Assembly: GCA_016183775.1 (NCBI GenBank)
Contig: JACPDY010000149.1
Span: forward strand, 1 to 56,158
Direction: 5' to 3'
Length of the DNA stretch: 56,158 bases
DNA from: Bacteroidota bacterium
Lineage (GTDB): Bacteria; Bacteroidota; Bacteroidia; JABDFU01
Under the pieces are notes generated by a model that saw only the letters and a list, made by a program, of their open reading frames with translations, had not been told where the DNA came from and did no database searches. Position 1 is the first letter of the stretch. Each line of letters starts with the position of its first letter. The translations under genes and the position numbers were made by a program. Positions 11,745-24,683 of the stretch are shown piece by piece.

Positions 11745-14369
11745 GTGGCAAGCATTAAACTAAATATTACACCCTATTCTTCCGAAGCAAAAGGAGTTAT
11801 TTCTGCTTTGCAGTCTGATGCTGCAATAGGTTTGTCTCAATCAGAAGTATCTATGCGCCTCAAAAAATACGGTGCAAATAAAATACTGGAGAAAAAAAAC
11901 AAGAGCTTATGGCTAATTTTCTTTAGTCAATTTAAAAGCCCGATTATCGGGCTTCTTTTAATCGCGGCCGGACTATCTTTTTATTTTGGTGAATGGCTGG
12001 ATGGAATTGCTATTCTTGCCGTGATACTGATTAATGCGATGATCGGCTTTTATATGGAACACCAGGCAGAACGTTCGATGAATGAGCTGAAAAAATTATC
12101 TGCTGTCCCTGCCAAAGCTCTCCGGGATAAAAAATTAGAAGAAATAAATGCCGAAGATATTGTTCCGGGAGATGTGATTTATATTGAAGCAGGTGACCTG
12201 ATTCCGTCAGATGGACGAATTTTTAAGACTTCACAATTGCAGATTGATGAATCAGCGCTCACAGGCGAATCCCTGCCTGTAGAAAAACAGGCCGGAAAAT
12301 TAACCGGTGAAATCATCCTTGCAGAACGAACAAACATGCTGTACAAAGGAACCTATTCCACAAAAGGAAATGGTTTTATGGTTACTACAGATACAGGCAT
12401 GGATACAGAGCTTGGAAAGATCGCACATTTGGTGCATTCAGCAGAACAAGCCGCTACACCTTTAGAAAAAAAACTCAGACAGTTCAGCAAAAAACTTATT
12501 TGGGTCACACTCGCATTGGTAGTACTGATTTTTATTGCCGGCCTCGTGAACGGACGGGAATTACTTGAAATGCTTAAAACTTCCATTGCATTAGCTGTTG
12601 CTGCCATACCGGAAGGTTTGCCCATTGTTGCGACGATGGCATTGGCACACGGGATGATAAAGATGGCAAAATACAATGTGATCGTAAAAAAGCTTTCATC
12701 AGTAGAAACGCTCGGTGGAACTAACGTAATATGTACGGACAAAACGGGTACGCTTACGCAAAATAAAATAGAAGTAAATAAAATAGTTACTTCTGCCGAA
12801 ACCGCTGAAGTTTTGGAAGTCATTAACAGAATAGCCGTTTTATGCAATACTGCCGAATTACAAAATAACAATGGCACCATTAGAGAAATTGGAGATCCTC
12901 TTGAAACCGGATTGCTGAAATTTGCTTTAAAAAATGCCGTTAATGTCCAGAATTACCGTAGTAAATTTCCTAAAATAAAGGAAGAGCCCTTTTCTTCAGA
13001 AACTAAAATAATGGTTACACTCCATCAAACCGAAAATGATCTTACCGTTTATGCCAAAGGAGCATCGGAGGAATTACTCCATCATTGTGATCGTATTATA
13101 GAAAAGGAAGGTATTACAAAACTAAATGCTGAAAAAAGAAAATATTGGGCGCAAAAAGCGGAAGAACTTGCCAATTCAGGATTAAGAGTTATTGCGGGAG
13201 CATTCAAGCCTGAGGCATCCTCTGATAAAAACATGTCTGCTGAACTTGTATTTGTTGGCTTATTTGGAATGATCGACCCACCAAGGGAAGAAGTATTTCG
13301 TGCAATCGAAGAATGTAAAACGGCAGGCATTAATATAATAATGTTAACCGGAGATCACCCGGCCACAGCCAAAAATATCGCCTTGAAATTAGGAATTGCT
13401 GATAATAATAATTGCAAAGCAATGGTCGGAAAGGAAATGAAAGATTACGAATATCTGACCGAACAGGAGAAATCAAATTGGCTTGATACAAAAATATTTG
13501 CACGGGTAAGTCCCAAACAAAAACTTGATCTCGTGTCGGTTTTACAGGAAAGGAAAAACATTGTCGGGATGACAGGAGATGGAGTAAATGACGCTCCTGC
13601 ACTGAAAAAAGCAGATATAGGTATTGCAATGGGATTGAGAGGTACACAGGTATCACAGGAAGTGGCTGACATGGTATTAAAAGATGATTCTTTTTCATCG
13701 ATTGTTGTGGCTATTAAACATGGGCGCATCATTTTTGAAAACATAAGGAAGTTTGTCATTTTTTTACTTTCCTGTAACCTAAGTGAGTTAATGGTGATTG
13801 CTACTGCCGCTATATTCAACTTCCATTTTCAGTTGTTCCCGCTTCAGATTCTTTTCATCAACCTCATCACGGATGCGCTTCCGGCACTTGCATTGGGAGT
13901 GACGGAAGGAAGCAAAGAGACAATGAAAAAGCCACCAAGAAATATGAATGAGCCAATAATTGACAGAAAAAGATGGATAGATGTTTTCTTTTACTCAATT
14001 ATTATTGCTGCAGTCAGTCTGGGAGCAGTATTTTTTAGTCATTTAACGGTTCATAAGATAGAAATATGGAACGCTGAATTATGTAATAATATATTATTCT
14101 TTACCCTGATCTTTTCACAGCTTCTGCATGTGTTAAATATGGGAAGCGGTCCCTCCTTTTTCAAATCAGAAGTATTTAGGAATATATATATATGGGGAGC
14201 AATAGCTTTTTCCGTGGCTATTTTAATTGGTATATATGTTTTTGAACCTGTCAGGAAAGTATTGTCGCTTTATGAAATGTCTGCAAGTGATTGGTTTATT
14301 TCAATAGCGGCAGGTGTTATTTCGCTTATAATTATTCAGATTGCAAAAAAAATAAAAATCGTACAATGA
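11745..14369 (+). CDS. P2-type cation-transporting ATPase (Ca2+/Mn2+-pump-like)
   Basis: An 874-residue P-type ATPase of normal length. Visible motifs are TGES (E175) in the actuator domain, AIPEGLP in the fourth membrane segment, CTDKTGTLT with the phosphorylated Asp D332, TGDHPATAKNIA, and TGDGVNDAPAL (611-616 GDGVND). Ca2+-site residues of P2A pumps are kept: Glu in PEGLP, Asn/Glu in SCNLSELMV and Asn/Thr/Asp in NLITDALPALALG. It should therefore move Ca2+ or Mn2+ out of the cytoplasm rather than Cu+ or Zn2+, since the CPC motif and N-terminal metal-binding domains of P1B pumps are absent. The start is a GTG with no clear ribosome-binding site, and a later start is possible. Its stop overlaps the next start by 4 bases. 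It is the first gene of the nine-gene unit. Confidence 0.92.
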   Translation: MASIKLNITPYSSEAKGVISALQSDAAIGLSQSEVSMRLKKYGANKILEKKNKSLWLIFFSQFKSPIIGLLLIAAGLSFYFGEWLDGIAILAVILINAMIGFYMEHQAERSMNELKKLSAVPAKALRDKKLEEINAEDIVPGDVIYIEAGDLIPSDGRIFKTSQLQIDESALTGESLPVEKQAGKLTGEIILAERTNMLYKGTYSTKGNGFMVTTDTGMDTELGKIAHLVHSAEQAATPLEKKLRQFSKKLIWVTLALVVLIFIAGLVNGRELLEMLKTSIALAVAAIPEGLPIVATMALAHGMIKMAKYNVIVKKLSSVETLGGTNVICTDKTGTLTQNKIEVNKIVTSAETAEVLEVINRIAVLCNTAELQNNNGTIREIGDPLETGLLKFALKNAVNVQNYRSKFPKIKEEPFSSETKIMVTLHQTENDLTVYAKGASEELLHHCDRIIEKEGITKLNAEKRKYWAQKAEELANSGLRVIAGAFKPEASSDKNMSAELVFVGLFGMIDPPREEVFRAIEECKTAGINIIMLTGDHPATAKNIALKLGIADNNNCKAMVGKEMKDYEYLTEQEKSNWLDTKIFARVSPKQKLDLVSVLQERKNIVGMTGDGVNDAPALKKADIGIAMGLRGTQVSQEVADMVLKDDSFSSIVVAIKHGRIIFENIRKFVIFLLSCNLSELMVIATAAIFNFHFQLFPLQILFINLITDALPALALGVTEGSKETMKKPPRNMNEPIIDRKRWIDVFFYSIIIAAVSLGAVFFSHLTVHKIEIWNAELCNNILFFTLIFSQLLHVLNMGSGPSFFKSEVFRNIYIWGAIAFSVAILIGIYVFEPVRKVLSLYEMSASDWFISIAAGVISLIIIQIAKKIKIVQ

Positions 14370-14956
14370 GTACCACATTTTTTGTAAAAAACATTTTTCT
14401 TGTTGTTTTATTTTGTGCAGGATTTAATTCTGCATTTTCTCAGGAAATTTCGCAAGTCGATTCTTTAAATCCACCTCCCGGGAAAGTAAGAAAAACAGAA
14501 AAAACAGTTATCGTGAATGCAAAGCCGGAAGAGGTATTCGCTTTTATGGATGATATCAGCAATACAGGTATGCACATGACAAAAAATAGCGTACAAATGG
14601 CAGGAAGCAAACTAAGGTTGGAATGGCTTACAGAACATAAAACCGGTTTAAATACTAAGTACAGATGGACCGGAAAAGCAATGGGAATGAAAGTGAAATT
14701 TACGGTTATTGTTACCCAATGGGATGAAGGGAAGTCGAAAACCTGGGAAACCATTGGTGATGCAAAAATGATCGTAATTTCGTGGTTCAAAATGTATTTG
14801 GAACTAAAACGAAATAACGATGGAACCACAACTGCCAGACTTGGTATTTTATATACTAAATCAAAAAATATTCCGGGCTTTTTATTAGGAAAAAGGTATT
14901 CTATTTGGTGCGTGAAAAGTATGCTAAAAGACACTAAAAAACACTTTAATAAATAG
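14366..14956 (+). CDS. Exported SRPBCC (START/polyketide cyclase-like) protein
   Basis: A 196-residue protein. I use the ATG at 14366, which overlaps the ATPase stop (ATGA) and gives a proper signal peptide (MSTTFFVKNIFLVVLFCAGFNSAFSQ); an earlier in-frame start at 14291 would lack one. The body reads like an SRPBCC ligand-binding fold: VIVNAKPEEVFAFMDDISN at its start, then alternating beta strands, RWTGKAMGMKVKFTV, and a C-terminal helix (SIWCVKSMLKDTKKHF). Such folds bind hydrophobic ligands in a deep cavity; the ligand here is unknown. The tight coupling to a cation pump and a nucleoside phosphorylase suggests a shared stress regulon rather than a shared pathway. Confidence 0.7.
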   Translation: MSTTFFVKNIFLVVLFCAGFNSAFSQEISQVDSLNPPPGKVRKTEKTVIVNAKPEEVFAFMDDISNTGMHMTKNSVQMAGSKLRLEWLTEHKTGLNTKYRWTGKAMGMKVKFTVIVTQWDEGKSKTWETIGDAKMIVISWFKMYLELKRNNDGTTTARLGILYTKSKNIPGFLLGKRYSIWCVKSMLKDTKKHFNK

Positions 14957-14963
14957 AAGTAAA

Positions 14964-16472
14964 ATGAACAGTCAACATCTTCATAAATTAAGCGTAAAAG
15001 ACATTGGCATTGACACCTATCGTGAGAATACTATTTATATGCGTGCAGATTGTCATATATGTAAATCCGAAGGGTTTAAAGCCCTTACAAGAGTAGTTGT
15101 GAATTTTAATGGAAAAAGTATTATTGCCACAATTAATGTGGTTTATTCTGAAATAATTCATCACAATGAAGCCGGCCTCTCCAAAGAAGCAATGAAACGG
15201 TTGGAAGTAAAAGATAATGATGAAGTCATTATTACTCACCTTGATCACATTGAATCGTTGAGCAGGGTTCGTGCTAAAATTTACGGAAAAGAGTTAGATG
15301 AAAATTCTTTCCATGAAATTATTTCTGACATAGTAGCAGGCAGGTACTCCAATATTGAATTATCAGCTTTCGTTTCCTCCTGTGCAGATGACAATCTTTC
15401 CGTGAATGAAATAATATCACTTACAAAAGCCATGATTAATACCGGGGAGAAAATAAGCTGGAACAAAAGTATGGTGCTTGATAAACATTGCGTAGGCGGA
15501 CTTCCCGGAAACCGCACTACTCCTATTGTTGTCAGCATTGTTGCTGCAGCGGGTTTAATGATTCCCAAAACATCTTCTAAAGCAATTACTTCTCCTGCCG
15601 GAACCGCTGACGTTATGGATGCGATTACCCGTGTAGACTTAACAATTGAAGAAATGAGAAAAGTGGTGGAAAAAGAGAATGGATGTTTTGTTGGAGGCGG
15701 TTCTATGCAATTGAGTCCTGCTGACGATATTCTTATTTCAGTTGAAAGGGCGCTTGATATAGACAGCGAAGGGCAAATGATCGCATCCGTTCTTTCCAAG
15801 AAGATGGCCGCAGGATCTACGCATGTATTAATTGATATTCCGGTCGGGAAAACCGCAAAAGTTCGCTCCAATGAAGAAGCATTACATCTTCAATATTATT
15901 TTAAAGCTGTTGGAGAAGCAATTGGTTTAACTGTAAATGTTCTTATAACAGATGGAAGCCAGCCTGTTGGAAAAGGGATAGGCCCGGCACTGGAAGCAAT
16001 GGAAATCCTTTCCGTTCTAAGAAATGAAACAAGTTGTCCGAAAGATCTTAAAGAACGTTCACTCATACTTGCCGGAGAGTTATTGTCAATGTCAGGAAAG
16101 TTCGAACAGGGTAAAGAAAAGCAAATTGCAAAAGAAATTCTTGAAAGCGGAAGGGCGCTTGAGAAATTTCTATCGATCTGCAACACACAAGGTGGTTTTA
16201 CCGAGCCCCGGGCCGGACAATATCGTTTTGACGTACTTTCTGAAAAAAACGGAATTGTAACAGAAATTGACAACCGAAAACTGGCCCGTATTGCCAAACT
16301 TGCAGGGGCACCAAAATCGCCGGGTGCTGGAGTTCTATTTAACGCACCATTAGATATGAAGATTTCAAAAGGGGATTTTCTTTTTTCGATATATTCAGAT
16401 GCAAAAGGACAATTAGAATATGCAATAGAATATATGAATATAAACAACAATAACATAATAAACATTAGCTAA
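14964..16472 (+). CDS. Thymidine phosphorylase family protein (AMP phosphorylase-like)
   Basis: A 502-residue protein, longer than classical DeoA (about 440) and matching the archaeal-type AMP phosphorylase/thymidine phosphorylase group. An extra N-terminal domain (about 1-90, ending DNDEVIITHLDHIESL) precedes the catalytic part, which has DKHCVGGLPGNRTTPIVVSI (phosphate-binding region), SSKAITSPAGTADVMDAI, GGGSMQLSPADDILISVE and the C-terminal domain (GGFTEPRAGQYRF). The family splits nucleosides or NMPs with phosphate into base and ribose 1-phosphate or ribose 1,5-bisphosphate. Pairing with a PRPP synthetase two genes on fits a nucleotide-ribose salvage role, as in the archaeal pathway, but RuBisCO and R15P isomerase are not in the window. 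Substrate (AMP or thymidine) is not decidable here. Confidence 0.85.
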   Translation: MNSQHLHKLSVKDIGIDTYRENTIYMRADCHICKSEGFKALTRVVVNFNGKSIIATINVVYSEIIHHNEAGLSKEAMKRLEVKDNDEVIITHLDHIESLSRVRAKIYGKELDENSFHEIISDIVAGRYSNIELSAFVSSCADDNLSVNEIISLTKAMINTGEKISWNKSMVLDKHCVGGLPGNRTTPIVVSIVAAAGLMIPKTSSKAITSPAGTADVMDAITRVDLTIEEMRKVVEKENGCFVGGGSMQLSPADDILISVERALDIDSEGQMIASVLSKKMAAGSTHVLIDIPVGKTAKVRSNEEALHLQYYFKAVGEAIGLTVNVLITDGSQPVGKGIGPALEAMEILSVLRNETSCPKDLKERSLILAGELLSMSGKFEQGKEKQIAKEILESGRALEKFLSICNTQGGFTEPRAGQYRFDVLSEKNGIVTEIDNRKLARIAKLAGAPKSPGAGVLFNAPLDMKISKGDFLFSIYSDAKGQLEYAIEYMNINNNNIINIS

Positions 16473-16480
16473 AAAATAGT

Positions 16481-16654
16481 ATGAAAAAAGAAATTTCTAA
16501 ATTTTTTTGTGCTCCTATTACCTGGAAGGTAGTTTCTCATCTATCGTTAGGATTAAACGGTGTTTTACTCATAGCCCTTTGGTATTCAATTAATACTATC
16601 CGGATAATTATTCCTGCAATAATATCCTGTATATTGGGGTATTATGCATGGTAA
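16481..16654 (+). CDS. Small membrane protein, 57 residues
   Basis: A short open frame starting MKKEISKFFCAPITWK and ending GYYAW. It lies 8 bases after the phosphorylase stop, on the same strand, and its stop overlaps a possible upstream start of the next gene (ATGCATGGTAA). It has two hydrophobic stretches: VVSHLSLGLNGVLLIALWYS (about 17-36) and IIIPAIISCILGYYAW (about 42-57). Its place in a unit with almost no wasted space supports a real gene. I recognise no family and suggest no function beyond a membrane-embedded helper protein. Confidence 0.55.
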   Translation: MKKEISKFFCAPITWKVVSHLSLGLNGVLLIALWYSINTIRIIIPAIISCILGYYAW

Positions 16655-16676
16655 CAGTAAAATTAAACAAAGACCA

Positions 16677-17762
16677 ATGAAATCAATTGTATTTGCGTTG
16701 CCGGGCAATGGAGTATTAGCAAAAAACATTGCTGATGCCATGCAAGCTGACATGGGAGAAGTAGTTATCAGGTATTTCCCTGATGGAGAAATCTATGTAC
16801 GTGTGCTAAGTGAAGTTAAAAACAGAAAAGTATTTCTGATATGTACACTTTCTAAGCCTGATGAGAAACTATTGCCTTTATATTTTCTTTGTAAAACAAT
16901 AAAATCATTAGACACATCCTCTGTTTCAGTCGTGGCTCCTTACCTTTCTTATATGCGTCAGGATGCCATATTTAATCCGGGAGAAGGAATAACCTCAGAA
17001 TACTTTGCTTCTCTCCTTTCAGGATTTGCAGATTCTTTGATTACGATTGACCCACATCTTCACCGCAGGCATTCAATGGCTGAAATTTATTCAATACCCT
17101 GCACAGTGATACATGCATCCTCTCTTATTTCGGCATATATTAATAATCATATCCCGAACCCTTTGTTAATTGGGCCTGATTCAGAAAGTGAACAATGGGT
17201 TTCTGAAGTCGCAAAAAATGCACATGCGCCGTATGTAGTGCTTGAAAAAATAAGATCAGGGGATAAGGAAGTAAAAATTACCTTGCCTCAACTCGAAAAA
17301 TATAAGAATCACATCCCTGTGTTGGTGGATGATATTATTTCTACTGCCCGAACAATGATAGAAACAGTTAAGCATTTAAAAAGTGAAGGGATGAAGCCTC
17401 CAATATGCATTGGAATACATGCGGTATTTTCAGGAGATGCTTTTGAAGAACTGAAAAAATCAGGAGTTAGTCAAATTATTACCTGTAACACTATTCCTCA
17501 TGTATCCAATGGGATTGATGTTACGGCATTAATTACTGAAAATATCGATAGAAAAAATAAAACAGAACTAAAATCAACAATTACTTGCCCTCACTGTGGT
17601 CATATAAAACCGGAAATAATGCCAACCGATACCTGTCAGTATTTTTATGAATGCGAGCATTGCAAAAAAGTATTAAAACCCAGGAAAGGTGATTGTTGTG
17701 TTTATTGCTCTTATGGAACAGTAAAATGTCCTTCTAAACAAACAGGAGCAGGATGTTGTTAA
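16677..17762 (+). CDS. Ribose-phosphate pyrophosphokinase-like protein fused to a GDCCVxC cysteine-rich tail
   Basis: I start at the ATG at 16677 (MKSIVFALPGNG), where PRPP synthetase homology begins; an ATG at 16644 would add 11 residues and overlap the small upstream gene. Residues 1 to about 290 are PRPP synthetase: FPDGEIYVRV, ApyLSYMRQD-type region, TIDPHLHR (metal/ATP loop), EKIRSGDKEV and VLVDDIISTARTM (PRPP loop, divergent from DDMIDTAGT). The last 60 residues form a zinc-ribbon-like module: TCPHCGH, CEHCKK, then GDCCVYC (338-344), CPSK and a final GCC. That tail matches the GDCCVxC domain, usually a separate small protein or selenoprotein; here both positions are Cys. The fusion may couple PRPP supply to a metal- or redox-sensing tail. 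Enzyme activity is likely but unproven given the altered loops. Confidence 0.8.
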   Translation: MKSIVFALPGNGVLAKNIADAMQADMGEVVIRYFPDGEIYVRVLSEVKNRKVFLICTLSKPDEKLLPLYFLCKTIKSLDTSSVSVVAPYLSYMRQDAIFNPGEGITSEYFASLLSGFADSLITIDPHLHRRHSMAEIYSIPCTVIHASSLISAYINNHIPNPLLIGPDSESEQWVSEVAKNAHAPYVVLEKIRSGDKEVKITLPQLEKYKNHIPVLVDDIISTARTMIETVKHLKSEGMKPPICIGIHAVFSGDAFEELKKSGVSQIITCNTIPHVSNGIDVTALITENIDRKNKTELKSTITCPHCGHIKPEIMPTDTCQYFYECEHCKKVLKPRKGDCCVYCSYGTVKCPSKQTGAGCC

Positions 17763-17789: not shown

Positions 17790-20700
17790 ATGATTAATTA
17801 CTTCATAGCCTGGTCTGTCAAAAACCGCTTCATCGTTCTGTTTATTGCAGTGGTAATAGCAGCATATGGGATTTTTTCCGTGAAGAATACTCCTGTTGAT
17901 GCTATTCCTGATCTTTCTGAAAACCAGGTTATTATTTTTACCGAATGGATGGGTCGAAGCCCCCAAATTATAGAAGATCAAATCACCTACCCGCTTGTAA
18001 GTAACCTGCAGGGCATACCCCGGGTAAAAAACATCAGGGCAGCATCAATGTTCGGGATGAGTTTCGTATTTGTCATTTTTAATGATGATGTGGATATATA
18101 TTGGGCGAGAACACGGGTACTTGAACGATTGAATTATGCTCAGCGACTATTACCTGAAGGAATAACCCCAACACTTGGTCCCGATGGAACAGGATTAGGA
18201 CATATTTTTTGGTACACATTAGATGCACCGGGTTATGATCTTGGAGAGTTACGGGCATTACAAGACTGGTATGTTCGTTTCGCGTTGCAAACAGTTGATG
18301 GAGTGAGTGAAGTTGCTTCGTTCGGAGGCTTTCAAAAACAGTATCAGGTTGTTGTTGATCCATACAAGCTTCGCTATTACAACATCCCTTTAATGGATGT
18401 AGTGAATAAAATAAAAGCGAACAATAATGATGTAGGCGGAAGAAAATTTGAACAGTCAGACATCGGTTATATCATAAGGGGATTAGGTTACATAAAAAAT
18501 ATAAATGAAATTGAGAATATCCCGCTTAAAACGCTCAATACAGTTCCTATAAGAGTTAAGGATGTGGCAAAGGTGCAAACAGGAGGCGAATTGCGATTGG
18601 GAATAGTTGACGAAAACGGAGATGGTGAAAAAGTAGGTGGTATTGTAGTAATGCGCTATGGAGAGAACGCAAAAGATGTAATAGATCGATTGAAAGAAAA
18701 AATTAAAGATGTGGAAAAAGGATTGCCTGAAGGAGTGAAATTTAAAGTTGCCTACGATCGCTCGGTTCTTATTGATGAAACAATTGACACCTTAAGTGAA
18801 GCAGTAACAGAGGAAATTATCATCGTTTGCATAGTACTGTTTATTTTTCTTCTTCATGTACGAAGTGCGCTTATTGTGGTTATTACTATTCCTATGTCGG
18901 TATTGATCGCATTTATACTGATGAAATGGTTTGGTATTACTTCAAATATAATGTCATTAGCCGGAGTCGCCCTTGCTGTTGGCGATCTTGTAGATGCAGG
19001 AATAGTCATGGTAGAAAACGCCATGAAAGAACTTGCTGAAGAACGTGGTTCCGCAGAAATAAAACTTTCTGAAATTGATCGTAAAAAGCGCATTGAAATT
19101 TCATCTAAGCTTATAGGTAAAGCGGTTTTCAATTCCATTCTGATAACACTCGTTTCCTTCAGTCCTATTTTATTCCTGGAAGGTCAGGAGCATAAACTGT
19201 TTTCTCCGCTTGTCTGGACAAAGACCTTTGCCATGTTGGGCTCAGCGTTTGTTGCGATTTTCCTTATTCCGGTTTTAATGATCTTCTTTCTTAAAGGGGA
19301 AATTCGCCCTGAAAGTAAGCATCCTGTTTCAAGATTTTTCATCTGGATATATACTCCAATAATACGATGGTGTTTGAAATGGAAAAAAACAACCATTGTA
19401 TTAAGTGTGGCTTTGATTTTAGGCAGCATTCCATTAGTGCTCAATTTAGGAACTGAATTTATGCCTCCTTTGGATGAAGGCTCATTACTTTTTATGCCTG
19501 TAACTATGCCCGATATTTCTAATTCAGAAGTTAAACGTATTATGCAGGTGCAGGATAAATTAATTTTATCTGTACCCGAAGTGGAAAATGTGTTAGGTAA
19601 AGCAGGCCGGGCAAATACTGCAACCGATAATGCGCCCATGAGCATGATCGAAACAATTATCCTGTTAAAACCGCGTGACCAATGGCGCAAAGGGAAAACA
19701 AAGAATGATATTATCAATGAGTTAAATTCGAAGATGCAGATACCCGGAGTGATCAATGGATGGACACAACCAATTATCAACAGGATAAACATGCTCTCTA
19801 CAGGAATAAGAACAGATGTTGGAATAAAGATCTATGGACAGAATCTGGACACTATAAATAAGCTTGCTCAACAATTTAAAAAAGAATTGACAGGACTTGA
19901 AGGCATTAAAGATTTATACGTAGAGCCAATTGTTGGAGGAAAATATATTGATGTGGTAATAAAAAAAGAAGAAATAGGAAGATATGGACTTTCGGTTGAT
20001 GATGTAAATATGTTCATTGAAACAGCATTAGGGGGAATGAACGTAACTACTACTATTGAAGGCAGAGAGCGGTTCACGGTAAACATACGTTTTGCCCAGG
20101 ATTATCGTGATCAAATTCGAAAATTTAAAGACCTGCAAATACAAGCTATGGATTTTGGACCAATACCTCTTTCAGCAGTTGCAGAGATTAAAATTTCAGA
20201 AGGTCCTCCAATGATCAATTCTGAGAATGCAATGCTAAGGGGAACGCTTTTATTCAATGTACGTGAACGGGATATGGGCAGTACGGTAGCGGATGCCAAA
20301 ACAAAATTAGAACCATTCATAAAAAAACTACCTAAAGGTTATTTCCTTGATTGGAGCGGGCAATATGAGAATCAGGTACGTGCACAGAATAGATTAATGT
20401 TTATTATTCCCATCGTTCTTTTAATAATCATGATAATTCTATATTTCACTTTTAAAAATATCCGGGAAGTGTTAATAGTTCTTTCCGCTGTTCCCGTTGC
20501 TCTTGTCGGAGGAGTATATTCACTGCATTTTTTCGGAGTTAATTTTTCAGTAGCCGTTGCAGTTGGGTTCATTGCTCTATTTGGAATTGCTGTTGAAACA
20601 GGAGTGTTAATGCTGGTATACATGAACAATTCCGTGTTCAAAAAATCAGAAAAAAATAAAGAGGAAAATAAAAGCATGACCAAACAGGGTATCGAAGATG

Positions 20701-20957
20701 CTATTTATGAGGGGGCAGCTTTAAGATTACGTCCAAAACTTATGACAGTGCTTGTGGATATAATCGGGCTAATGCCCATATTGATTGCCACAGGCACCGG
20801 AAGTGACGTAATGAAGCCAATTACTATTCCGTTTGTTTTCGGTTTAATTACGTCAACTCTTTTTGTTTTGATCGTGTTACCGGTGGTGTATGCTATCGTC
20901 AGAGAATATGAGCTACGAAAACACGGGGAATTAAAAATTCAGGAGTTTGAAGATTAA
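17790..20957 (+). CDS. cusA: Heavy-metal efflux RND transporter, CusA/CzcA family
   Basis: A 1055-residue inner-membrane RND pump. It opens with the HME-RND signature (FIAWSVKNRFIVLFIAV, DAIPDLSENQVIIFTEWMG) and has GVALAVGDLVDAGIVMVENAM in TM4, where the acidic residues carry protons in this family. Two large periplasmic loops and twelve membrane segments are expected. Met residues fall where CusA has its Cu(I)/Ag(I) relay (LLFMPVTMP, APMSMIET, INRINMLSTG), which favours monovalent copper or silver over zinc/cobalt; this is from motif recall, not an alignment. The gene starts 27 bases after the PRPP synthetase gene and is followed by its outer membrane and adaptor partners, so it works as the motor of a tripartite envelope-spanning pump. 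Confidence 0.92.
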   Translation: MINYFIAWSVKNRFIVLFIAVVIAAYGIFSVKNTPVDAIPDLSENQVIIFTEWMGRSPQIIEDQITYPLVSNLQGIPRVKNIRAASMFGMSFVFVIFNDDVDIYWARTRVLERLNYAQRLLPEGITPTLGPDGTGLGHIFWYTLDAPGYDLGELRALQDWYVRFALQTVDGVSEVASFGGFQKQYQVVVDPYKLRYYNIPLMDVVNKIKANNNDVGGRKFEQSDIGYIIRGLGYIKNINEIENIPLKTLNTVPIRVKDVAKVQTGGELRLGIVDENGDGEKVGGIVVMRYGENAKDVIDRLKEKIKDVEKGLPEGVKFKVAYDRSVLIDETIDTLSEAVTEEIIIVCIVLFIFLLHVRSALIVVITIPMSVLIAFILMKWFGITSNIMSLAGVALAVGDLVDAGIVMVENAMKELAEERGSAEIKLSEIDRKKRIEISSKLIGKAVFNSILITLVSFSPILFLEGQEHKLFSPLVWTKTFAMLGSAFVAIFLIPVLMIFFLKGEIRPESKHPVSRFFIWIYTPIIRWCLKWKKTTIVLSVALILGSIPLVLNLGTEFMPPLDEGSLLFMPVTMPDISNSEVKRIMQVQDKLILSVPEVENVLGKAGRANTATDNAPMSMIETIILLKPRDQWRKGKTKNDIINELNSKMQIPGVINGWTQPIINRINMLSTGIRTDVGIKIYGQNLDTINKLAQQFKKELTGLEGIKDLYVEPIVGGKYIDVVIKKEEIGRYGLSVDDVNMFIETALGGMNVTTTIEGRERFTVNIRFAQDYRDQIRKFKDLQIQAMDFGPIPLSAVAEIKISEGPPMINSENAMLRGTLLFNVRERDMGSTVADAKTKLEPFIKKLPKGYFLDWSGQYENQVRAQNRLMFIIPIVLLIIMIILYFTFKNIREVLIVLSAVPVALVGGVYSLHFFGVNFSVAVAVGFIALFGIAVETGVLMLVYMNNSVFKKSEKNKEENKSMTKQGIEDAIYEGAALRLRPKLMTVLVDIIGLMPILIATGTGSDVMKPITIPFVFGLITSTLFVLIVLPVVYAIVREYELRKHGELKIQEFED

Positions 20958-20967
20958 TAAAATTATA

Positions 20968-22239
20968 ATGAACAACAAAAATTTAAATATAAAATTGCGC
21001 TTATTTGTCATCGTATTTGCTATTTATGCTCATCTCTCAAATGCGCAACCAATGTCTCTTGATAGCATTTTGAATACAATAAAAATAAATAATTCAGAGC
21101 TTAAAATTTATGATGACCAGATAAAAGCTTACAATGAATACGCAAAAGGTGCAAGGGCTCTTGACCCGCCGCAAATAGGCGGCGGATTTTTTATGACTCC
21201 TTATGATCCTCTAATGTGGCAACCGGATATAATGAATAATAGCAATGGAATGGGGTCATTTATGATCTCTGTACAGCAAATGTTTATAAATCCAAATAAG
21301 TTAAATGCCAATGCTGCATACATGAAGAGTATGTCGGGTATAGATTCAGCAATGCAAAGATCAATGAGAAACGAAATGTTCTCAATGGCAAAGATGAACT
21401 ACTATGAATGGATGATTATGAAGAAAAAACTGGTTGTCCTTAATGAAAGTGAAGAGTTGCTCAACTACCTGATAAAATCAACTGAATTAAAATATACTTA
21501 CGGAATGGATAAGTTAAACTCCTACTACAAAGCAAAAGCAATGCTCGGAGAAATGCAAATAATGAAAGTAATGGCAGAGCAAGGAATAAAACAAAAAATG
21601 ATTGTATTGAATACACTTATGAACCGTGATAAAAATAGAACCTTTGATATTGACACGTCTTATATTCTCAAAAACTATGAACTGAAAGTAGCAGATAGCA
21701 CAGCTATTAAAAGCAGAAGTGACTATACTGTTCTTTCTCAGAATATAAATGTATTGAAAGCAAAACAAAATTATGAGTATTCCAAACGACTTCCCGATTT
21801 TGGAATTAAATACGATCACATGCTTGCTTTTGGCACGCAGCCGCAGCAATTCAGCGCTATGGCAATGGTAACTATCCCCATTACTCCCTGGTCTTCTAAA
21901 ATGTATAAATCAAATGTTACAGGATTGGGCTTTGAAATAGAAGCCGGTAAAGACAAACAACAAAGTTTTATAAATCAGGTAAGCGGAAATATTGAAAATA
22001 TTAAGGTTCAGATTAAAAGCAAAAGGCAGCAAATTGAACTCTCTGAAAAAATCATAATTCCATCTATGAATAAAAATTATGAAACGGAATTGATCGCTTA
22101 CGAGCAAAATACAGAAATGCTTTTCATGGTTCTTGACGCATGGCAAAATCTAAAGGTATCCCAACTCATGTATCTTGATCAGCTGATGGAATTACTTGCA
22201 TTGCAAATACAATATGAAAAACAACTCGAAATCCGATAA
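20968..22239 (+). CDS. cusC: TolC-family outer membrane efflux protein (CusC-like)
   Basis: A 423-residue protein. I use the ATG at 20968 (MNNKNLNIKLRLFVIVFAIY...SNAQP), 10 bases after the cusA stop; a TTG at 20947 would overlap cusA and spoil the signal peptide. It has a signal peptide, then long amphipathic coiled helices typical of the TolC alpha-barrel (LNESEELLNYLIKSTELKY; QIELSEKIIIPSMNKNYETELIAYEQN) and a beta-barrel region. It is rich in Met (for example FMTPYDPLMWQPDIMNNSNGMGSFM), fitting a copper/silver channel. There is no lipobox, unlike E. coli CusC. It forms the outer-membrane exit duct for the CusA pump. Confidence 0.85.
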   Translation: MNNKNLNIKLRLFVIVFAIYAHLSNAQPMSLDSILNTIKINNSELKIYDDQIKAYNEYAKGARALDPPQIGGGFFMTPYDPLMWQPDIMNNSNGMGSFMISVQQMFINPNKLNANAAYMKSMSGIDSAMQRSMRNEMFSMAKMNYYEWMIMKKKLVVLNESEELLNYLIKSTELKYTYGMDKLNSYYKAKAMLGEMQIMKVMAEQGIKQKMIVLNTLMNRDKNRTFDIDTSYILKNYELKVADSTAIKSRSDYTVLSQNINVLKAKQNYEYSKRLPDFGIKYDHMLAFGTQPQQFSAMAMVTIPITPWSSKMYKSNVTGLGFEIEAGKDKQQSFINQVSGNIENIKVQIKSKRQQIELSEKIIIPSMNKNYETELIAYEQNTEMLFMVLDAWQNLKVSQLMYLDQLMELLALQIQYEKQLEIR

Positions 22240-23486
22240 TGAATAAACATATAGTCATATTATTTGTATTAATTGGCTTTATGTTGTCATGCAGTGATAA
22301 TACTGAACACGATAATCATAAAGAACATAAATCAAAGACCTATACTTGCCCGATGCATCCTCAAATAACAAAAAATGAACCCGGACAATGCCCGATATGC
22401 GGAATGAAATTGGTGGAAAAGGAGAATGATGGTCACAGCACAAATGACAGTATAATATCACTTTTACTGAAGCCAACGAATGAATATGTATTTAGCCGGG
22501 TGAAAACAACGTCTCTGCACCAAAAAGAATTTCCGGTTGAAATTACTGCCACAGGAACAATAAAATATGATACAAGAGAAGTAAACACTGTTTCGGCACG
22601 CGTATCAGGATGGATTGAAAAGCTGTATATAAAATATCAGTTTCAGCCTGTTTCTAAAGGGGAAAGGCTAATGGACATATACAGCAAAGAGCTTTTAACA
22701 GCGCAGGAAAATTTTCTCTTTCTATTAAAAAATGATGCGGAAAATGAAACACTGATTAATGCTGCGGAAAAAAGATTATTTCTTCAGGGACTTAGCAAAG
22801 AGCAAATTGACAAACTAAAGCGAGCTCAAAAAGTATTTCATGCGGTATCAATCTTTAGTCCTTACAGCGGCCACTTACATGATCTGAATGGCACAACAAT
22901 AGCTTCACCGGACGAAGTCAGCGGAATGAATAACGGGGAAAGATCAACCGCTGAATTGATAATTAAAGAAGGAATGTATATACGTGCAGGACAAAGCATT
23001 TTTAATATTTACAATACCGAAAAAGTCTGGGCGGCACTTGATATATATAGCGAAAATATTCAATTATTAAAGACGGGTCAGCGGGTTATTCTTTTCATGA
23101 ATGGAAGTAAAGAAGATACACTTGAAGGAAAAATAGATTTTATTGAACCGGCTTTTAACAAAGGCCGGAAAACAGCTTCCGCAAGAGTTTATCTTGATAA
23201 CTCAAAACATAAACTTAAAATTGGACTGCTTCTAAAGGCCAATGTGTATGTTGGAGCAAAAAAGGGATTTTTCATTCCCTCCACTGCTATTGTTCATCTG
23301 GGCAACGCCGAAATTGTGTTTTTAAGGGAAAAGGATATTTTAAAATCAAAAGTTATTACAACAGGTATAAAAGCAGGAGAATTTACAGAAGTTATTTCGG
23401 GTATTTCAGAAAGTGATAAGATAGCTGCAAATGCACAAATGTTGATTGACAGTGAAAGTTTTATCAGGTTAAATCCTGAAGAATAA
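22239..23486 (+). CDS. cusB: RND efflux periplasmic adaptor (CusB-like) with N-terminal heavy-metal-binding domain
   Basis: A 415-residue lipoprotein; its start codon overlaps the CusC stop by one base. The lipobox is FMLSCSD. A Cys/His metal module follows, YTCPMHPQITKNEPGQCPICGMKL, the classical heavy-metal-binding domain of CusB-type adaptors (CxMHP and CPxCGM). The rest is a membrane-fusion protein: an opening barrel/lipoyl strand (EITATGTIKYDTREVNTVSARVSGWIEKL), helical hairpin, second lipoyl half and beta barrel. It links CusA to CusC and hands metal to the pump. It is one of two adaptors in tandem, which may form mixed hexamers. Confidence 0.9.
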   Translation: MNKHIVILFVLIGFMLSCSDNTEHDNHKEHKSKTYTCPMHPQITKNEPGQCPICGMKLVEKENDGHSTNDSIISLLLKPTNEYVFSRVKTTSLHQKEFPVEITATGTIKYDTREVNTVSARVSGWIEKLYIKYQFQPVSKGERLMDIYSKELLTAQENFLFLLKNDAENETLINAAEKRLFLQGLSKEQIDKLKRAQKVFHAVSIFSPYSGHLHDLNGTTIASPDEVSGMNNGERSTAELIIKEGMYIRAGQSIFNIYNTEKVWAALDIYSENIQLLKTGQRVILFMNGSKEDTLEGKIDFIEPAFNKGRKTASARVYLDNSKHKLKIGLLLKANVYVGAKKGFFIPSTAIVHLGNAEIVFLREKDILKSKVITTGIKAGEFTEVISGISESDKIAANAQMLIDSESFIRLNPEE

Positions 23487-23492
23487 ATTAAT

Positions 23493-24683
23493 ATGACTGT
23501 AAGAATTTTATATTTTATTGTTTCACTTTTCTTGATTAGCTGTAACTCCAGGCAAGAAAAGGAAAATCCGGATGTTTATTACACCTGCTCCATGGATCCT
23601 CAGGTGAGAGAAAACAAACCGGGTACCTGCCCTATTTGTAAAATGCCTCTTACTGCTGTAAAAAAATCACAGGATGAAGATAATGATCAATTGCATTTGA
23701 GTGATCAGCAGGTACGGCTTGGCCATATATTAGTTGACACTGTTAAGAAACATGTGTTTGGATCAGAACTATTTTTGACCGGGACATTAGTAGCCAATCA
23801 GAATAAAACGGTTGTAATAAGTTCAAGAGTGATGGGAAGAATTGAAAAACTTTATTTTAAAAATACAGGAGAAGATATTCATAAAGGAGAACCCATTTAT
23901 GATATTTATAGCGAGGAAATAAATCTGGCTTTAAAAGAACTAAAATTGGCAATTGAAAAAAAGAAAACTCAAATAAATATAACCATTGATATAGACAGGA
24001 TGATTAGCAGTGCGAGAAACAAACTTGTGCTTTTTGGACTTTCAGAATCACAAATTAACGAGTTGGAAGAGGCCGGTAATTTTACCCAATTAATAACCAT
24101 CAAAAGTCCTGATGATGGGGTAATTACTTCAATTGATATTACAGAAGGTAATTATGTGATGGAAGGCGGCAGTGTATTGCACCTGGCAGATTATTCGAGC
24201 TTGTGGGCAGAAGCACAGGTTTTTTCAGAAGATATGGCAAAGATCAAAGAAAGCATGGCCGCCCGGGTTTTCTTTCCCAACAATTCAAAACTAAACATTG
24301 AAGGCAAGGTTATATTCACAAATCCTGAATTGAATACTACCTCAAAGATCAATCTTATCAGAATAGAAATTGTTAATGAAAAGAATGTATTAAAACCAGG
24401 AATGCAGATTAATGCTTCTGTCCTCTATGATGAATTTGCTACAATCGCTTTGCCGACTGATGCGATCATTCTTGAAGAGAAAGGCGCAACCGTTTGGCTG
24501 AAAACGGAAAAAAATAAATACAAAAGTGTCATGGTTCACACGGGAATTGAATCGAACGGCTATACCCAGGTGCTTCATGGAATAGAAATGGGTGATATTG
24601 CAGTAGTATCAGGCAACTATCTTCTCCAAAGTGAATACACATTTAAGAAAGGAAGTTCCGTAATGCAAGGACATCAGCATTAA
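23493..24683 (+). CDS. Second CusB-like periplasmic adaptor with variant metal-binding motif
   Basis: A 396-residue lipoprotein (lipobox FLISCNS) starting 6 bases after the first adaptor. It shows the same layout, with a short metal module and then a membrane-fusion-protein core (GTLVANQNKTVVISSRVMGRIEKLYFK, then GVITSIDITEGNYV). The metal module differs from its neighbour: it reads TCSMDPQV and CPICKM, so His of MHP is replaced by Asp and Gly of CGM by Lys. This may tune metal affinity or abolish it. The two adaptors are clearly homologous but diverged, so this is an old duplication rather than a recent one. It is the last gene of the unit; a nested palindrome follows. Confidence 0.87.
   Translation: MTVRILYFIVSLFLISCNSRQEKENPDVYYTCSMDPQVRENKPGTCPICKMPLTAVKKSQDEDNDQLHLSDQQVRLGHILVDTVKKHVFGSELFLTGTLVANQNKTVVISSRVMGRIEKLYFKNTGEDIHKGEPIYDIYSEEINLALKELKLAIEKKKTQINITIDIDRMISSARNKLVLFGLSESQINELEEAGNFTQLITIKSPDDGVITSIDITEGNYVMEGGSVLHLADYSSLWAEAQVFSEDMAKIKESMAARVFFPNNSKLNIEGKVIFTNPELNTTSKINLIRIEIVNEKNVLKPGMQINASVLYDEFATIALPTDAIILEEKGATVWLKTEKNKYKSVMVHTGIESNGYTQVLHGIEMGDIAVVSGNYLLQSEYTFKKGSSVMQGHQH

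Follow-up and report, generated by a model that had tools for sequence, protein, structure and literature searches.

The window, a 56,158-nucleotide stretch of a Bacteroidota contig, carries on its forward strand a gene of 361 uninterrupted codons (16677-17762) whose 361-aa product joins a PRPP synthetase (PRPS)-like core to a cysteine-rich GDCCVxC module. The core (residues 1-296; 16677..17564) belongs to the PRK07199 subfamily (NF005537) and contains the Pfam domains Pribosyltran_N and Pribosyltran. It is followed by an unconserved interdomain linker modelled with low confidence (residues 287-299; 17535..17573) and by the module (residues 300-361; 17574..17762), which contains 11 cysteines. 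Both halves scored above the NCBIfam cut-offs and far above chance level: residues 1-298 matched NF005537/PRK07199 with 384.6 bits (cut-off 322), and NF041374 matched residues 300-356 with 98 bits (E 2.7e-28, cut-off 40), or 101.8 bits in a genome-wide search. The general PRPS model TIGR01251 also matched the core (203.7 bits, cut-off 113), and Pfam recognised the PRPS half and gave no match for the tail. The fusion proposed in an earlier note, with its motifs CPHCGH, CEHCKK, GDCCVYC and a terminal CC, was thereby recovered in full.

The start methionine at 16677 aligns with the starts of homologues; a longer frame from 16644 was rejected as the true start, as its 11 additional residues are absent from homologues. 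All cysteine codons of the tail are TGT or TGC and the gene has no in-frame TGA, so the window copy is not a selenoprotein. No in-frame ATG, GTG or TTG occurs between codons 270 and 311 of the window gene or of its counterpart in genome G712, and a single ATG is found at codon 291 in the third known copy (locus L066). Since the window junction offers no in-frame start codon, the tail is not readily made as a separate product.

Upstream, on the same strand, lie a type II (Ca-type) P-type ATPase gene as the first gene of the cassette (11745..14369), a gene for a SRPBCC/polyketide-cyclase-like exported protein with a weak Pfam match (14363..14956), and a gene for a thymidine phosphorylase/AMP-phosphorylase-like partner (14964..16472; NF003338/PRK04350, TIGR02645). 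The ATPase gene is also present in the L066 and G712 cassettes, and the SRPBCC-like gene in L066. The interval before the fusion gene holds a predicted hydrophobic ORF of 57 aa (16481..16654) without counterpart in relatives; in L066 and G712 the phosphorylase and PRPS genes abut or overlap and this ORF is missing. Compared with L066, G712 and G253, the window cassette (11745-16472) also lacks the beta-CASP RNase gene that normally adjoins the phosphorylase gene.

Downstream, also on the forward strand, follow a CusA/CzcA heavy-metal RND permease (17790..20957; TIGR00914), a CusC-like outer-membrane efflux protein (20947..22239) and two CusB-like adaptors (22239..23486, with PF16576 and PF19335, and 23493..24683). 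The P-type ATPase gene through the second adaptor gene lie on one strand with small gaps; cusA begins 27 nt behind the fusion gene, and the junctions that follow overlap or measure 1-6 nt through both cusB genes. This spacing supports the metal efflux transcription unit that had been predicted for the locus. A promoter scan gave no excess over shuffled sequences. The succession of two CusB-like adaptors in one operon (22239-24683), each with its own heavy-metal-binding domain, is an observation in its own right.

Recurrence, selection and predicted structure

A full-length fusion with 75% identity over 361 aa was recovered in a Bacteroidia MAG (genome G448, locus L066) when 84,980 genome species were scanned with six short patterns, of which one lies in the tail; since the scan relied on those patterns, fusions without them may be missed. 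A sample of 395 Bacteroidia genomes added G712 (locus L165), a member of another family, in which the fusion reads into the tail up to residue 353, where the contig ends. Both are about 75% identical to the window protein. The joint is in frame and the linker identical in length in all three genomes, and in L066/G448 and G712 the fusion gene again lies behind the phosphorylase and P-type ATPase genes. Because two more Bacteroidota genomes carry the fusion at this identity, it is confirmed, at the level of sequence, as genuine and not a frame error. The search for the fusion in other genomes, which the earlier note had proposed, was thus successful, and the frame error at the junction that the note had named as a refutation is excluded by the shared in-frame joint.

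The fusion is rare. Among the sampled Bacteroidia, PRK07199-type proteins were fused in two of the 17 carrier genomes, and none of the 78 PRK07199 carriers in the class of Ralstonia (gammaproteobacterial sample, 369 genomes) had the fusion. Three genomes are known in all, mostly fragmented MAG-like assemblies. As far as the literature search shows, the PRPS-GDCCVxC domain architecture is undescribed. Several candidates for additional fusions were rejected: in the Cupriavidus plasmids H44 and H49 the apparent tail stems from an overlapping gene for a TraR/DksA zinc finger and not from GDCCVxC, a 117-aa frame at a contig start (L041) is a truncated MerC-GDCCVxC protein, and the extra length of a 369-aa frame in G674 is an N-terminal read-through.

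The fusions clustered together with one unfused member, G697 (support 81/74), in a tree built from 22 PRPS cores. A single origin was not rejected (p-AU 0.237), and the tree of the tails (57 columns) did not separate alternative origins. The closest unfused homologues, from G697 and G253, are tail-less PRPS proteins at the same operon position. G448 additionally encodes MerC-GDCCVxC fusions and one unfused PRPS.

The comparison of the window with L066 gave nearly equal dN/dS values for core (0.117) and tail (0.122) and a higher one, 0.60, for the 13-residue linker; the linker values ranged from 0.6 to 1.0 across the window pairs; these values are rough, because dS in the core is about 1.2 and thus near saturation. 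The estimates indicate that purifying selection is acting on core and tail, but not on the linker. All 11 cysteines of the tail were invariant in 37 tails including that of the window fusion, contrary to the loss of cysteine conservation that would have spoken against a functional module.

In the AF2 model, confidence was mostly above 90 in the PRPS core and about 65 in the linker. The tail was folded, mostly at 78-89 up to residue 350, with a stretch of low confidence at residues 311-320 (61) and a disordered end. Foldseek with the tail only returned no significant match to solved folds (best E 0.88); the weak matches were zinc-ribbon-like, and the sequence profile of the tail resembled the RNA polymerase zinc ribbon weakly (E 0.018).

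A cassette enzyme with a family-wide deviation

The core has the fold of class III PRPP synthases, its nearest solved relatives (Foldseek E about 1e-23 to 1u9y, target-normalised TM about 0.9). The enzymes of M. jannaschii (1u9y) and T. volcanium (3mbi) are alike in fold and closest in sequence among solved structures, but they have no cysteine-rich tail and differ in the pyrophosphate loop. Retained in the core are the catalytic K191 and R193 (K-x-R), FPDGE at 34-38, RQD at 94-96 and the ribose-5-phosphate loop DDxxxT at 218-223. The pyrophosphate loop reads PDSES in the window core, and every PRK07199 member compared has PDxES, in contrast to the canonical PDxGG, and PRK07199 proteins have an extended DPHLHRR motif. 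The PDxES loop suggests an altered substrate or altered kinetics for the subfamily, and for PRK07199 the name PRPP synthetase should therefore be read as a family label rather than as a demonstrated activity. Apart from the three fusion proteins, the PRK07199/NF005537 members sampled end shortly after residue 290 and are tail-less.

A PRK04350 thymidine/AMP-phosphorylase-like gene was found upstream of the PRK07199 PRPS gene in 20 of 20 Bacteroidota loci, with one gene inserted in G253. Genes for a beta-CASP RNase, an ATP-cone protein, PFK, USP or a P-type ATPase are often nearby. The description of the PRPS as divergent holds in so far as it deviates from canonical enzymes; with the cassette and the PDxES loop shared across PRK07199, the divergence belongs to the whole phosphorylase-paired subfamily in the loci compared and not to the window protein in particular.

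A cassette of this type is known from Bradyrhizobium diazoefficiens, where bll3117-bll3116-bll3115 (TP-PRPS-MBL) is induced in microoxia (PMC6515984) and under FixK2 control, with a FixK2 box (PMC9104804). The match of the trio to the cassette is based on gene order and on the annotations thymidine phosphorylase family, ribose-phosphate pyrophosphokinase and MBL fold; with bll3116 the window protein shares the PRK07199 subfamily, the PRK04350 phosphorylase partner and the PDxES loop. PRK04350 and PRK07199 form a near-obligate pair, at window positions 14964-17564 as in some 20 related loci, and a beta-CASP RNase often accompanies them. The cassette thus resembles a putative pathway from RNA or nucleotides to ribose phosphate in low-oxygen cells.

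GDCCVxC as a module of mercury operons

Stand-alone GDCCVxC proteins comprise about 68 aa and begin with MxIxLxSTITCPxCGHKKEE. The beginning of the fused tail coincides with theirs, which implies that a whole small protein was appended. With the stand-alone NF041374 copies compared, the tail shares the whole domain, all 11 cysteines, GDCCVxC and the terminal CC at about 60-78% identity; it differs in being fused to the PRPS C-terminus, in the lack of a preceding MerT or MerTP and in having cysteine only, without a Sec codon. Selenocysteine is an optional feature of the NF041374 family, present in some members.

Among 83 distinct GDCCVxC loci, MerT was encoded directly upstream on the same strand in 53, and a further 17 were MerC-GDCCVxC fusions and two MerT-containing fusions. 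A Mer partner, upstream or fused, was thus present at 72 of 83 loci in a set biased to Bacteroidota, because loci were chosen by similarity to the window tail or by score. At the 11 loci without Mer partner, the available upstream sequence was only about 1.5 kb in eight. Pfam and NCBIfam confirmed MerTP, MerT, MerC-like and ArsR proteins as partners. The gene order was merR-(merT)-merP-GDCCVxC in Aeromonas and Pseudomonas plasmids and ArsR-merTP-GDCCVxC in a Haliscomenobacter plasmid; in Caulobacter p1 the surroundings of the gene include RND genes and an HTH gene, and in Cupriavidus pHG1 it lies downstream of DUF1326/DUF2182 genes. GDCCVxC is a Mer-associated module, and its recognition as a part of mercury operons is new in the present analysis. 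The literature search found no paper on GDCCVxC proteins and no metal-binding measurement; in view of its Mer partners, the module presumably binds Hg(II) or another thiophilic metal. The module had previously been described as a small stand-alone (seleno)protein: stand-alone forms do exist, but the domain is also associated with Mer transporters and occurs in natural fusions with MerC and MerT.

The MerC-GDCCVxC fusions, frequent in Flavobacteria (e.g. L078, L101, L121), and the MerT(-HMA)-GDCCVxC fusions carry the same module likewise at the C-terminus of another protein (e.g. L078, L030, L111). Their partner is a mercury transporter, whereas that of the window protein is a cytosolic enzyme. 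L111:5467-6273 is a triple fusion MerT-HMA-GDCCVxC in a single ORF.

In 14 genomes of carriers or relatives, no match exceeded the MerA cut-off. Sub-threshold matches arose in nearly all control genomes and were rejected as MerA; they are probably other flavoprotein disulphide reductases, e.g. Lpd. MerTP was not found in the genome of the window. Its sole other GDCCVxC-like ORF is a degenerate stand-alone form on contig C137 (28151-28294; L002:1465-1713; 45 bits), which adjoins a short-chain dehydrogenase gene and has partly lost the cysteine pattern (CPYYKVE.. DRSCCVFC). The sibling genomes G299 and G300 contain similar weak matches.

Origin and possible roles of the fusion

PRPS and GDCCVxC genes were found separately within one island or plasmid in G253, G198 (about 32 kb apart) and Caulobacter FWC26 p1 (about 13 kb). 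In G253 Cus genes adjoin the unfused PRPS gene, and 20-40 kb separate it from two MerTP-GDCCVxC pairs; in L066 genes for a phosphate transporter and a CopB-like ATPase come after the fusion gene, and Cus genes lie further downstream, at about 12 kb. The sharing of metal islands by both gene types offers a simple route to the fusion. Most likely, a stand-alone GDCCVxC gene was joined to the 3' end of a PRPS gene within a metal-resistance island holding both.

The fusion offers a lead for two uncharacterised families, GDCCVxC and the PRPP-synthetase-like PRK07199 enzyme, whose cassette is of a type induced in microoxia. We favour, with a probability of about 0.55, a beads-on-a-string protein of two independently working parts, in which the cassette enzyme displays a binding module for thiophilic metals of the Hg/Cu type. 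The N-terminal part would be a PRPP-synthetase-like enzyme of a low-oxygen or stress cassette (P-type ATPase, phosphorylase, PRPS and usually a beta-CASP RNase), and the C-terminal part a soluble cytosolic module for Hg2+-type metal, possibly also Cu+/Ag+, that normally serves Mer transporters. The tail would capture the metal in the cytosol via a tetra-Cys zinc-ribbon-like site and the thiols of GDCCVxC and CC. The PRPS partner, which we take to be oligomeric from family knowledge, would serve as its scaffold, and the promoter of the enzyme would drive expression beside the Cus exporter. Metal binding, the kind of metal, the scaffold role and activity of the enzyme part are what we infer for such a protein. 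The linker, unconserved and modelled with low confidence, is no less compatible with a tethered binding module than with an allosteric switch. Against the two-part reading, the tail may be in contact with the core, and selection on both domains would be equally expected if the tail regulated the enzyme.

Such regulation, with metal loading or disulphide formation in GDCCVxC switching PRPP synthesis and so linking the supply of nucleotides with metal or redox stress, seems unlikely. The fusion has been kept over about 25% protein divergence with all cysteines retained, the cassette is tied to oxygen status in Bradyrhizobium (PMC6515984), and the intact K-x-R and ribose-5-phosphate loop would imply an activity to regulate. 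The linker, with its dN/dS of 0.6-1.0 and low model confidence, probably counts mildly against a switch; in addition, the closest unfused homologues (G697, G253) lie without a tail at the same operon position, and elsewhere GDCCVxC serves transporters, not enzymes. That a metal/thiol module of mercury operons switches or protects the PRPS, so that loading of the tail by thiophilic metal or its oxidation directly tunes PRPP supply, is accordingly a tentative idea; if true, nucleotide salvage in a low-oxygen cassette would be coupled to metal stress.

Doubtful as well is a neutral or nearly neutral accident, in which two neighbouring genes of a metal island became fused through a deletion and the tail persisted only because it belonged to the protein or because of its stand-alone function, the physical link being unused. 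Both genes occur apart in the same islands and plasmids, the fusion is rare in Bacteroidia and was absent from the gammaproteobacterial carriers, G697 is unfused within the fusion clade, and the genome of the window has no MerTP and one other, degenerate, GDCCVxC-like ORF. The persistence of the fusion in three divergent genomes with constant linker length argues against an accident, as does the single origin that was not rejected. A frame error, misassembly or chimeric binning of unrelated ORFs, which the fragmented MAG-like assemblies and the end of the G712 copy at a contig edge might suggest, is very improbable in view of the identical junction in three genomes of different families or assemblies and of purifying selection on both sides of it.

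Apart from the fusion, GDCCVxC is tied here to Mer transporters in operons seemingly without mercuric reductase, clinical KPC plasmids included. L198:2576-4198 and L199, from Aeromonas and Pseudomonas plasmids of which one is pKPC2, contain merR-merP-GDCCVxC units with no merA in the stretch shown; they hint at a mercury module that dispenses with the reductase and ends with the GDCCVxC gene. The L198 unit lies beside a Tn3 transposase gene, and its merT seems to be split into two ORFs.
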